Shown here: one piece after another, positions 1,074 to 5,465 of the stretch
Position numbering within the stretch: position 1 is the first letter of the stretch
Layout: every line of letters begins with the position of its first letter
Source: a virus
DNA length: 21,313 bases
Direction: 5' to 3' (one strand)
IMG/VR virus record: IMGVR_UViG_3300050026_000023
Span: 1 to 21,313 of that record
Notes under the pieces: model-generated
The model's database searches: none
Told to the model about the DNA's origin: nothing
What the model saw: the letters and a program-made list of their open reading frames with translations, nothing else
Made by a program: the position numbers and the translations under genes

Positions 1074-1149
1074 GGCGATAGGTACGATGGAGAAATTGCG
1101 AATGCCTCGCGCGGCCGGAAGCGTGACTTAGCTTGAAAAACTTGTGGTA

Positions 1150-1266
1150 GGGTCGGCTTGGCCCGGCGACAACGCATGGGGAGATTGCAGCGCTGGCCGC
1201 CTCGCAAGAGGCGGTGAAACTGCGGTCGGTGAACCGTGAACTAAACCCGTGCGCACTTGTGCGTGC
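1150..1266 (+). ncRNA. Candidate structured RNA or structured packaging site upstream of terS
   Basis: In the gap between two genes there are several perfect or near-perfect pairings. GGGTC 1150-1154 pairs with GGCCC 1160-1164 (one G-U). CGCATGGG 1173-1180 pairs with CCCGTGCG 1246-1253 (8 bp, one G-U), closing a multibranch domain. Inside it, GCAG 1187-1190 pairs with CTGC 1220-1223, and CCGCCTC 1197-1203 pairs with GAGGCGG 1208-1214 across a GCAA (GNRA) tetraloop. A short hairpin lies around 1223-1236. Finally 1249-1256 can pair with 1259-1266, which competes with the 8-bp stem. The GNRA loop argues for the + strand. No T-run follows any hairpin, so these are not terminators. The element ends 5 nt before the terS ribosome binding site (1272-1277). 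It could be a cis-acting leader, a trans-acting phage RNA (perhaps related to HEARO/omega RNAs, though I cannot confirm that consensus from memory), or a terminase recognition site. Confidence 0.5.
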
Positions 1267-1285
1267 AAATTAGGAAGCAGATACT

Positions 1286-1955: not shown

Positions 1956-3359
1956 GTGGCAGGGGAACCAACACTAAACCCAGCGCTGCGTGATTTCTGG
2001 CTGCAAAAAGCTGATATCCGAGTGCTATATGGTGGCCGTGTATCTAGCAAATCCTGGGACGCTGCTGGCTTTGCTGTTTTTTTGGCCCATAATTTTCGCA
2101 TACGTGTTCTATGTACTCGTCAGTTTCAGAATAAAATCGCCGATTCGGTTTATACGCTTCTAAAGTTCCAAATTGAACGGTTCGGATTGCAAGAACATTT
2201 CGAAATTCAACGTGACAAGATCATCGCGAAGTACACGGGATCCGAATTTCTCTTTTACGGTTTGTGGCGTTCCATTGATGAAGTAAAATCAATGGAGGGT
2301 ATCGATATATTGTGGATCGAAGAAGCACACAATCTGACAGAAGAACAGTGGCACGTTCTTGAGCCTACAATACGAAAAGAGAATTCTCAAATCTGGATCC
2401 TTTTTAACCCGCGCTTGGCAAACGATTTTGTGTATAAAAGGTTTGTGCTCCATCCCCCGCCAAATGCAATAGTGCGGAAGATAAACTACCTAGAAAACCC
2501 GTTCCTTTCTGAAAAAATCATCCGCACTATTGACGCCCTGAAAGCAGAAAACTATTTAGATTACGAGCACGTTTATCTTGGAGTGCCAAAACAGGACGAT
2601 GAAAGCGTCATCATTAAGCGTTCCTGGATTATGGCGGCAATTGACTCTCACTTGAAACTGGGGTTCAAACCGACTGGCCGAAAGCGCATCGGGTTCGATG
2701 TTGCAGACTCCGGTCCCGACAAATGCGCACTAGTTTACGCTCACGGATCCGTCGTCATTTGGTCGGATCTATGGCAAGCAGGCGAAGACGAATTGCTGAA
2801 ATCCTGCACACGTGTTTTTAAGGCCGCCAAATTGCATCACGCCAACGTGACCTATGACAGTATCGGCGTTGGAGCGAGTGTAGGGGCAAAGCTCGCGGAG
2901 TTAAACGCCAGCACAGGGGATCCTGATCGCGTCATATACGAAAAGTTCAACGCTGGGGGCAGTATTTGGCAGCCTGACCGGATTTACAGTGGCAGCACGA
3001 AAAACAGCGACATGTTCCTCAACATCAAAGCACAGGCTTGGTGGTTGTTGGCGGATCGATTCCGGAATACCTTCAACGCGGTGCGTAATGGGGACAAGTT
3101 CCCCGATGACAAGTTGATCAGTCTGTCAAGTGCTCTGCCCAATCTCAACATGCTGATTGACGAATTGGCTACACCGAAACGCGATTACGACGCCAACGGC
3201 CGGGTGAAAGTCGAAAGCAAGAAAGACTTGGCCAAGCGGGACGTTCCGTCACCTAATTTGGCCGACGCAATGGTGATGACCTTTGCCCCGGTGAGTGAGC
3301 CTCTTCGAATTACGGAGGAGGTAATGGCGCGGTTCGGGACAAGGAAGCGTTATGGTTGA
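1956..3359 (+). CDS. terL: Terminase large subunit (packaging ATPase and nuclease)
   Basis: A 467-aa protein with both halves of a large terminase. In the ATPase half, the Walker A-like loop is GGRVSSKS (residues 26-33) and Walker B is DILWIEEAH (from residue 117), with catalytic Glu at 122-123. In the RNase-H-like nuclease half, acidic residues are seen at D248 in IGFDVADSG, at D301 in VTYDSIGVGAS, and at D437 in PNLADAMVM. The length and arrangement fit the Terminase_3/Terminase_6 type. It pumps DNA into the procapsid through the portal and cuts the concatemer. The start chosen is GTG at 1956; no strong Shine-Dalgarno is visible, so translation may depend on coupling from the microprotein 17 nt upstream. 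The 3' end overlaps the portal gene by 8 nt. The ATPase-coding part is clearly more AT-rich than later genes. Confidence 0.95.
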   Translation: MAGEPTLNPALRDFWLQKADIRVLYGGRVSSKSWDAAGFAVFLAHNFRIRVLCTRQFQNKIADSVYTLLKFQIERFGLQEHFEIQRDKIIAKYTGSEFLFYGLWRSIDEVKSMEGIDILWIEEAHNLTEEQWHVLEPTIRKENSQIWILFNPRLANDFVYKRFVLHPPPNAIVRKINYLENPFLSEKIIRTIDALKAENYLDYEHVYLGVPKQDDESVIIKRSWIMAAIDSHLKLGFKPTGRKRIGFDVADSGPDKCALVYAHGSVVIWSDLWQAGEDELLKSCTRVFKAAKLHHANVTYDSIGVGASVGAKLAELNASTGDPDRVIYEKFNAGGSIWQPDRIYSGSTKNSDMFLNIKAQAWWLLADRFRNTFNAVRNGDKFPDDKLISLSSALPNLNMLIDELATPKRDYDANGRVKVESKKDLAKRDVPSPNLADAMVMTFAPVSEPLRITEEVMARFGTRKRYG

Positions 3360-4842
3360 TTTGCGATTCTGGCGGCATTTGTCTCATCCGATACCGCCGG
3401 TGCAGACGCCCGTTGCGCCTACTAAACAGACATGGAACTATGACGCGGCCAACGCTGTGCCGCCGCTGGCTATGCGGAGATCGCCGTTCGCGCCAGCGAT
3501 TGCCGGACCCGGTGTAATTCCCCCAGGCGTGACCATCGCTACTGATTCCGCTATGCCGTCTCAGTTTGACATGGCATACGCCTCGGCGGGGTATGCGTCT
3601 CTTGGGATGGCTGACGAGGGTAGGGGGTTCATGGGCTATCCCTATCTGGCGGAGTTACTGCAACTAGCTGAATACCGCAACGCCTGCGACATGCTCTCGC
3701 AAGACATGACCCGTAAATGGATCAAGCTCCAATGCACCGGGGATGACGAGAACAAAAGCGACAAACTCGCGGCAATTGAGGCAGAAATGAAGCGCCTGGG
3801 GGTGCAACAGATCGTCCGGGCGGCGGCATGGCAGGGCGACGGGTTCGGCCGCGCACAAATCTATATCGACACGGGGGACGGTGACGACCCCGACGAATTG
3901 TTGATGCCTTTGGTGGAATCGCCTGCGAAGGTCGGTCTAGGCGCGTTGAGAGCACTGCGCATCATCGAACCCATGTGGACCTATCCTAATCGGTACAACA
4001 CGAACGATCCGCTGCACCCGCATTTCTTCAAGCCAGAAACATGGTTCGTCCTGGGTAAGGAAATTCATGCTAGCCGGATCATGACAATAGTACCGAGGCC
4101 AGTATCCGATATGCTGAAGCCCGCGTATGCCTTCGGCGGGCTAGCCTTGCCGCAGATCATGAAGCCTTATGTGGATAACTGGATCCGCACTCGTCAAAGC
4201 GTGACAAATCTGGTTTCTAATTTCAGCGTCATGGTTCTGGCAACAGATTTAAGTACTTTTTTGACTACAAATAGCGGGGCAGACTTAGAGCGAAGAGTTC
4301 AGTTTTTCAACGTGTTGCGCGACAATCAAGGCGCAATGGTTGTCAATAGAGAGACCGAATCTCTCTCTAATATCTCCGCGCCAATCGCTGGCCTCGATCG
4401 CTTGCAGAGCCAAGCACAAGAGCATATGGCTTCGGTGTGCCGGATTCCGTTGATCAAGTTGTTGGGGATATCGCCCTCCGGCCTGAATGCCAGTAGTGAC
4501 GGCGAAATTCGCAGCTATTACGACAATATTGAATCGATGCAGGAAGCAATTTATACCGCCCACTTATCGAAGATCATCAACCTGATTCAGTTGTCGTTAT
4601 TCGGTGAGGTTGACAAGGAAATCACTTTCGTCTGGGAACCGTTATGGTCGTTGGATGCCATCGAGTCGGCTACAGCGCGGAAGACTGAAGCGGAAACCGA
4701 TTGTCTATTAATGGATCATGGGGTTCTGTCAACCATGGAAGTCCGGATCCGGATCGCGGCGGATGAAAATAGCCCCCATGCCGGGCTTGACTTGGGCGAC
4801 GCGCTCGCCACAAACGAGCCAGAAGAGTATTATGAGCAATGA
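3352..4842 (+). CDS. Portal protein (DUF1073-like)
   Basis: A 496-aa protein of typical portal length that directly follows terL. The N-terminal 85 residues are Pro/Ala-rich and probably flexible. The core starts near GYPYLAELLQLAEYRNACDM, a pattern characteristic of the DUF1073 anti-parallel portal family, followed by AAWQGDGFGRAQIYIDTGDG, a long helical central part (about 250-420) with SSDGEIRSYYDNIESMQ, and a C-terminal acidic tail. Twelve copies are expected to form the ring at one capsid vertex through which DNA enters and to which the neck binds. The ATG is preceded by AAGGAAG (3341-3347), 4 nt away, inside the end of terL. The stop overlaps the start of an 18-codon frame (ATGA 4839-4842). 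Confidence 0.9.
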   Translation: MVDLRFWRHLSHPIPPVQTPVAPTKQTWNYDAANAVPPLAMRRSPFAPAIAGPGVIPPGVTIATDSAMPSQFDMAYASAGYASLGMADEGRGFMGYPYLAELLQLAEYRNACDMLSQDMTRKWIKLQCTGDDENKSDKLAAIEAEMKRLGVQQIVRAAAWQGDGFGRAQIYIDTGDGDDPDELLMPLVESPAKVGLGALRALRIIEPMWTYPNRYNTNDPLHPHFFKPETWFVLGKEIHASRIMTIVPRPVSDMLKPAYAFGGLALPQIMKPYVDNWIRTRQSVTNLVSNFSVMVLATDLSTFLTTNSGADLERRVQFFNVLRDNQGAMVVNRETESLSNISAPIAGLDRLQSQAQEHMASVCRIPLIKLLGISPSGLNASSDGEIRSYYDNIESMQEAIYTAHLSKIINLIQLSLFGEVDKEITFVWEPLWSLDAIESATARKTEAETDCLLMDHGVLSTMEVRIRIAADENSPHAGLDLGDALATNEPEEYYEQ

Positions 4843-4907: not shown

Positions 4908-5465
4908 ATGACTGCTCAACCGCTTTACGTTACCTCTGTTCTCGGACAGGCTGCGCCAACAGTGGCGATAGGCGCCCTTGACGCTAACGGTGTCCTTCAG
5001 GTCGCCAGCGCGACGAACCCGCTGCCGATCGGCGCGACCCTTACGCTAAACCCGTCAGTCACGATCACCAGCGGAACGGTTGGACTCACTGTCGGCACAT
5101 CAAACATTGGCGTGGTAACGCCATACAGCGTGGCGTCTGCCAACTGGCAATATGCGGCGCCAACCGGGGGGATCATTACGACGGCACCCGTGACACTTGT
5201 TGCTGCGGCGGGGACCGGAGTTCGCAACTACATCACGGCACTGCAAATCAAAGGCTGCAATGCCGTCGCGTCTGAAGTTGTCATCCAGGATGGTGCGGCT
5301 GTAGTCCTCTGGCGGGGCTACGTAGCCGCAACGATGCTGACGGCGGATGACTTGGTATTCCCGACGCCGCTAATGTCGTCAACCGGGGTGAATTCTGCGA
5401 TTACGCTGACGGTCAACACCACGGCAACGCTAACATATGTGACAGCGCAGGGCTTTACCGCATAA
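4908..5465 (+). CDS. Beta-rich virion structural protein of unknown role
   Basis: A 185-aa Ala/Thr/Val/Gly-rich protein with alternating hydrophobic residues throughout, indicating an all-beta fold. The first half (to about residue 85) is repetitive, with many TLTLNPSVTITSGTVGLTVG-type strands; the second half (about 95-185, from RNYITALQIKGC to TLTYVTAQGFTA) looks like a compact jelly-roll or sandwich domain often seen in phage structural proteins. It lies between portal and minor head genes, so a head-decoration or portal-vertex component is plausible, but that is inference. The start is supported by AAGGA at 4894-4898, 9 nt upstream. The stop overlaps the next ATG (TAATG at 5463-5467). Confidence 0.7.
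   Translation: MTAQPLYVTSVLGQAAPTVAIGALDANGVLQVASATNPLPIGATLTLNPSVTITSGTVGLTVGTSNIGVVTPYSVASANWQYAAPTGGIITTAPVTLVAAAGTGVRNYITALQIKGCNAVASEVVIQDGAAVVLWRGYVAATMLTADDLVFPTPLMSSTGVNSAITLTVNTTATLTYVTAQGFTA

Follow-up and report, generated by a model that had tools for sequence, protein, structure and literature searches.

A MITE-like element before the small terminase gene of a phage: probable IS607 derivative with an orphan TnpB guide RNA

The gap before the small terminase gene (terS) of the phage contig IMGVR_UViG_3300050026_000023, of which the whole analysed stretch of 21,313 nucleotides is called the window here, very probably contains a non-autonomous, MITE-like derivative of an IS607 transposon, which has lost tnpA and nearly all of tnpB and retains an orphan TnpB guide RNA. 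The sequence evidence for this identity comprises homology to tnpB-linked guide RNAs, covariation, transposon ends, a contig that lacks both tnpA and tnpB, and another copy that is likewise tnpB-less. As in IS607-derived MITEs, both ends are present and no functional transposase or TnpB gene is found. The RNA is of a known kind, an IS607 TnpB guide RNA, but it belongs to a branch that lies under the Rfam cut-off. A preliminary description had marked a candidate structured RNA at 1150-1266; the structured RNA is real, but the element is larger, at about 1122-1280, and the likely guide extends beyond 1266 into terS (Table 1).

Table 1. Features of the element and its neighbourhood (window positions, except where loci are named)
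Feature	Position	Strand	Basis
Whole element, MITE-like IS607 derivative without tnpA and tnpB (left end, tnpB 3' remnant with guide-RNA scaffold, right end)	1122-1280	+	91.7% match; left end of L086; right boundary of four copies
Left junction with AG (1120-1121) as the proposed crossover dinucleotide, and left end CGT-GACTTAG	1120-1131	+	GACTTAG shared with L086
Remnant of tnpB codons 382-434, overlapping the guide-RNA scaffold	1132-1270	+	tblastn
5' hairpin, GGGUC-GGCUU-GGCCC	1150-1164	+	Same hairpin in L086, L087 and L088
Conserved core of the TnpB guide-RNA scaffold	1166-1246	+	Covariance models R2 and R1
P1, CAUGG (1175-1179) with CCGUG (1234-1238)	1175-1238	+	Compensatory change in 4 of 5 pairs
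P2, 1183-1190 with 1220-1227	1183-1227	+	Compensatory change in 4 of 6 conserved pairs
P3, 7-bp hairpin with GCAA loop, 1197-1203 with 1208-1214	1197-1214	+	Compensatory change in 7 of 8 modelled pairs
3' hairpin, 1249-1255 with 1260-1266, GUGCGCAC..GUGCGUGC	1249-1266	+	Kept in L086, L087 and L088
Transposon right end TAGGAAGCAG, including the Shine-Dalgarno-like AGGA before terS	1271-1280	+	Last bases common to the window, L086, L087 and L088
Predicted guide ATACTATGGGTAGGCGTTCT, spanning the terS start codon	1281-1300	+	Position directly 3' of the right end; use as guide putative
terS, small terminase, 176 aa	1286-1816	+	HTH_7 domain; relatives 35-52% identical directly before terL
terL, large terminase	1956-3359	+	Terminase_3, E 2.6e-40
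Related IS607 tnpB copies with guide RNA in genome G458	L157, L162, L165, L167, L169, L170, L172-L175		

A blastn search of plasmids gave one strong match, in which positions 1163-1282 were 91.7% identical over 120 nt (E 9e-41) to the Acidiphilium multivorum plasmid NZ_CP041717. The matched sequence consists of the final codons of a gene with the annotation 'RNA-guided endonuclease TnpB', located directly after an IS607-family transposase, and the 3' end of the tnpB gene is the site of TnpB guide RNAs (omegaRNA/reRNA; PMC11061315). This plasmid tnpB locus is referred to as L087 (tnpB at 2807-4111), a tnpB locus in a MAG as L088, and a different phage contig as L086. The TnpB of the MAG is 75% identical to that of A. 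multivorum, and this RNA is likewise present at its 3' end. A recognisable version is also found at the 3' end of TnpBs that are about 42-52% identical (from Cupriavidus, Geoalkalibacter, Hydrogenophilus, Thiodictyon, A. cryptum and others), where it follows the pattern UGGAG, helix, GCKCUGGC, hairpin (usually with a GCAA loop), GUGAAAC, helix, GUGAA. When we compared the L087 TnpB with the window by tblastn, residues 399-434 matched at 1163-1270 (89% identity, E 4e-13), and residues 382-400 matched weakly at 1132-1176 in another frame. Only residues ~382-434 are left, and the frame is broken by a deletion of ~20 nt: the window lacks a 20-nt hairpin that L086, L087 and L088 contain, and this difference shifts the tnpB frame. 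The same hairpin is also missing in other tnpB-linked relatives. Since only this broken fragment of tnpB is left, the element is a derivative and not a complete IS607 TnpB system. No tnpA or tnpB gene was found in the contig, which, like the other contigs, is incomplete.

Blastn of the window in phages returned no match, the exact 21-nt motif was absent from genome contigs, and a DNA search of 317 genomes of the MAG's order returned only the MAG itself and chance-level matches of 27-47 nt. In alphaproteobacterial genomes, tnpB-less or tnpB-relic copies of related RNAs are present, some of them near contig ends. One such genome (G458) has ten copies of a related IS607 tnpB with its guide RNA, with ten different guides. 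The MAG tnpB copy (L088:1200-1500) has no tnpA and lies beside iteron-like repeats, and its guide overlaps with the beginning of the following gene.

Covariation was examined in an alignment of 16 RNAs, the window included, over 19 pairs. Compensatory (double) changes were seen in 15 of the 19 pairs compared with 8.9 in shuffles, and none of 500 shuffles scored as high; 94.6% of cells were paired in the alignment, whereas shuffles reached 73.5% and slid controls 29-46%. These results bear out the structured RNA of the preliminary description. Because the window sat in this first alignment, we built a second covariance model (R2) from 12 tnpB-linked RNAs, none of the window type. This held-out model found the core at 1166-1246 as its sole match in the window (53.7 bits, E 9.3e-12, where E-values from purpose-built models are rough), and model R1 scored the same core at 78.1 bits. 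RAGATH-18 RNAs are published guide RNAs of IS607 TnpBs (PMC11061315), and the corresponding Rfam family, RF03064, was found at the equivalent position in the tnpB-linked loci L141, L134 and L142 at 25-26 bits, below its cut-off of 44.9 bits. When we ran Rfam cmscan on the window and on 1040-1400 with E up to 10, only chance hits were returned and RF03064 was not listed. By these scores, a proteobacterial branch of IS607 guide RNAs is diverged and falls under the Rfam cut-off.

The gap extends from the end of the ORF at 371-1069 to the terS start (1286), and its plus strand folds well. The region 1150-1266 had an MFE of -54.2 kcal/mol (z -2.35; equally stable shuffles, 3 of 200), and the 117-nt segment starting at 1141 ranked 6th of 2120 plus-strand segments after GC correction; the fold of the minus strand there was unremarkable. 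Taken on its own, the single sequence gives a good though not extreme signal; the comparative evidence is decisive. The GNRA hairpin and the hairpins at both ends are present as first drawn, and the 4-bp helix (1187-1190 with 1220-1223) proved to be the inner half of the 8-bp P2. An 8-bp stem (1173-1180 with 1246-1253) had been proposed to close the multibranch domain. It can form and is part of the MFE structure, but it is not the closing helix of the relatives, since it is broken by U.U in L087 and the relatives back P1 instead, which is CUCGG/CCGAG in L087. In addition, the loop GCUU (1156-1159) is complementary to AAGC at 1275-1278, and we propose a 4-bp pseudoknot between them; the complementarity is matched in most, not all, relatives. 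The loop and 3'-strand counterparts in tnpB-linked relatives are GUUC(C)/(G)GAAC in several and GCUC/GAGC in two, and are not clear in all. The proposed pairing is similar to a pseudoknot that is reported as essential in IS607 guide RNAs.

Comparison of the copies revealed the transposon ends. First, the window, L086, L087 and L088 share the right end ...AGGAAGCAG and diverge just after it, and only these four copies set the boundaries. Second, L086 contains a second tnpB-less copy, located before an unrelated gene. The left ends GACTTAGC(A/T)TGA of the window and L086 match, with 0 of 300 shuffles doing as well. The longer left end of L086 also matches that of the full element (1 of 300 shuffles as good). 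Since the kept left-end lengths differ, these two copies are separate deletion derivatives or have diverged since. The left boundary is not fixed to the exact base; the counterpart of GACTTAG in L087 is GACTCTAG. Third, the left end is preceded by GGAAG in the window, GGGAG in the sister contig L085, GAGAG in L086, and GGAG in both L087 and L088. The published TAM of IS607 TnpBs is AGGAG or GAGGG, with 5'-AGGAG in 18 of 22 strains (PMC11061315), and the proposed window TAM, GGAAG, matches AGGAG imperfectly. IS607 elements recombine at matching dinucleotides (PMC10711439). Finally, the guide of IS607 TnpB guide RNAs lies directly 3' of the right end (PMC11061315, PMC10711439); because the element is positioned directly before terS, the 20 nt after the scaffold, which is the guide position, include the terS start codon.

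When the element's flanks in the window are joined, CGGAAG-ATACT-ATG would form a plain Shine-Dalgarno sequence and start, and the empty site is predicted to consist of CGGAAG or CGGGAG and then directly ATACTATGGG. The joined L086 flanks would likewise give a predicted upstream frame ending in an ATGA overlap with the next gene. Searches for empty sites of the window and L086 guides returned only already-known records, the homologs found in a search for an uninterrupted L087 target gene do not span the break point, and the L088 left flank had no match in plasmids. As a separate observation, there are 8 substitutions between the window and L085 over the first 5 kb, 4 of them within 6 bases at the left junction (1119-1124, GGAAGCGT in the window and GGGAGATC in L085), as if the junction had been remade. 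Further downstream, 36 bases at 5026-5061 (12 codons inside the ORF 4908-5465) are absent from the sister contig, with several substitutions close by.

A guide RNA without a TnpB gene could act only with TnpB from elsewhere in the cell, and we give a mechanism of this kind in trans an even chance. A read-through transcript of the terS operon would carry the guide RNA, and the TnpB of a resident IS607 element (e.g. of the A. multivorum type, whose scaffold is about 92% identical) would bind it. The bound TnpB would then cut DNA with an empty terS site, where a GGAG-like TAM is followed by the guide sequence, whereas element-carrying copies would stay uncut because the element separates the TAM from the guide. 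The TnpA of a resident IS607 element would move the element in trans, and overall the element would selfishly persist and spread among the genomes of related phages. The phage would tolerate the insertion because the right end restores a ribosome-binding site in front of terS. A more specific reading, which we offer as a speculation, is that the orphan guide RNA with a TnpB borrowed from the host or a co-resident element targets the terS start of element-free related phages and is an RNA-only homing element biasing inheritance between phages in competition, and that TnpB processing of the terS leader might tie packaging to the presence of TnpB. In the open-licence papers searched, we found no guide RNA that lacks its nuclease, stands in the packaging operon of a phage and has its guide on the start of terS.

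The main rival shares the identity of the element and sees it as an inert scar, a recent and decaying remnant of an IS607 insertion that is unexpressed and unused, with a fold inherited from the parent transposon. We consider this a serious possibility, somewhat short of even. It is supported by the loss of tnpA and tnpB, by the frame broken by the 20-nt deletion, by the absence of the element from other related-terminase phages, and by a sigma-70 promoter scan, which found no site near the element; a terminator scan was likewise negative. However, no conserved helix of the scaffold has been lost, both the right end and the complementarity of loop and 3' strand have stayed intact, and the tnpB-less copy in L086 has another left-end length, indicating that such derivatives arise or spread repeatedly.

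The terminase relatives bear on the remaining explanations. We gathered 80 loci by TerL and 3 by TerS, and none of these related loci has the element before terS apart from the sister contig of the same phage (L002/L082/L085), which is 99.4% identical over 9.6 kb. Since the gaps before terS in the relatives are not homologous, terS-linked explanations were dropped. The terS gaps thus do not keep the pairings, while the true homologs of the element, the transposon right ends, do. The preliminary description had offered a cis-acting leader controlling terS translation as one alternative. Its position directly before the terS start and the likely Shine-Dalgarno sequence in its last bases agree with such a role, but we regard it as improbable because the gap is not conserved in related-terminase phages and a near-identical element precedes an unrelated gene in L086 and lies inside or beside other genes in L087 and L088. 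A side effect of the element on terS is possible. The other alternative, a terminase recognition (pac/cos) site, agrees only with the position upstream of terS, and is very improbable: a plasmid and a MAG carry the same sequence, elsewhere it precedes a gene unrelated to terminase, the covariation is that of an RNA, and conservation at the same place in related-terminase phages was not observed. The suggested relation to HEARO/IscB-type RNAs, drawn from the general look, is refuted by the Rfam search (RF02033 unmatched even at E up to 10) and by the protein linked in the relatives, which is TnpB; the nearest family is the IS607 TnpB guide RNA of the RAGATH-18 lineage, so that of the proposed free-standing, omega-type phage noncoding RNA, an omegaRNA-type guide RNA without a nuclease gene is what stands.

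Some relatives carry other sequences before terS. There are tRNA genes just upstream of terS at L048:3374-3458 and L050:3171-3245, which suggests that the gap is a cargo spot in these phages. A conserved GC-rich block of ~120 nt lies just before terS in L061:3300-3456, L064:3300-3459, L067:3070-3228 and L050:3300-3459. It differs from the element, is under all Rfam gathering scores and is unmatched by the guide-RNA model, and is a candidate cos/pac site or other structured RNA.

Altae-Tran et al. in 2021 reportedly described standalone IscB omegaRNAs acting in trans, guide-RNA copies without a nuclease gene; these are said to be of the IscB/HEARO type on a bacterial chromosome, whereas the RNA described here is of the TnpB type in a phage packaging operon. 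The element resembles IS607 TnpB guide RNAs (reRNA, RAGATH-18-derived, RF03064; PMC11061315) in the IS607 TnpB linkage of its relatives, the position at the tnpB 3' end adjoining the right end, the three-helix core, the 5' loop/3' end pseudoknot, which is a proposal here, and the guide beyond the right end. It differs from RF03064 as part of a diverged branch, and its scaffold overlaps the tnpB coding sequence, whereas the published RAGATH-18 type is outside it (PMC11061315); unlike the usual IS607 TnpB guide RNA, it has no adjacent tnpB. The guide RNAs of TldR in temperate phages are also TnpB-derived, but at TldR loci the encoded TnpB is nuclease-dead and the target is host flagellin (PMC13418256), while the element described here encodes no protein and its guide matches the terS start of the phage itself. 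Like bacterial insertion-sequence MITEs, the element is short and protein-less with both transposon ends; unlike them, it derives from IS607, which has no terminal inverted repeats, and it keeps a structured guide RNA.

Cas12 descends from TnpB. In plasmids, TnpB has been reported to work as a gene drive that favours its own insertion sequence (PMC11870625). If the proposed mechanism is true, a protein-less element of ~160 bp in a packaging operon would mean that such a drive can split into an RNA-only parasite and a nuclease acting in trans. An element of this size is small enough for gene-based annotation to miss, and the diverged proteobacterial branch of guide RNAs to which it belongs also falls under the Rfam cut-off.
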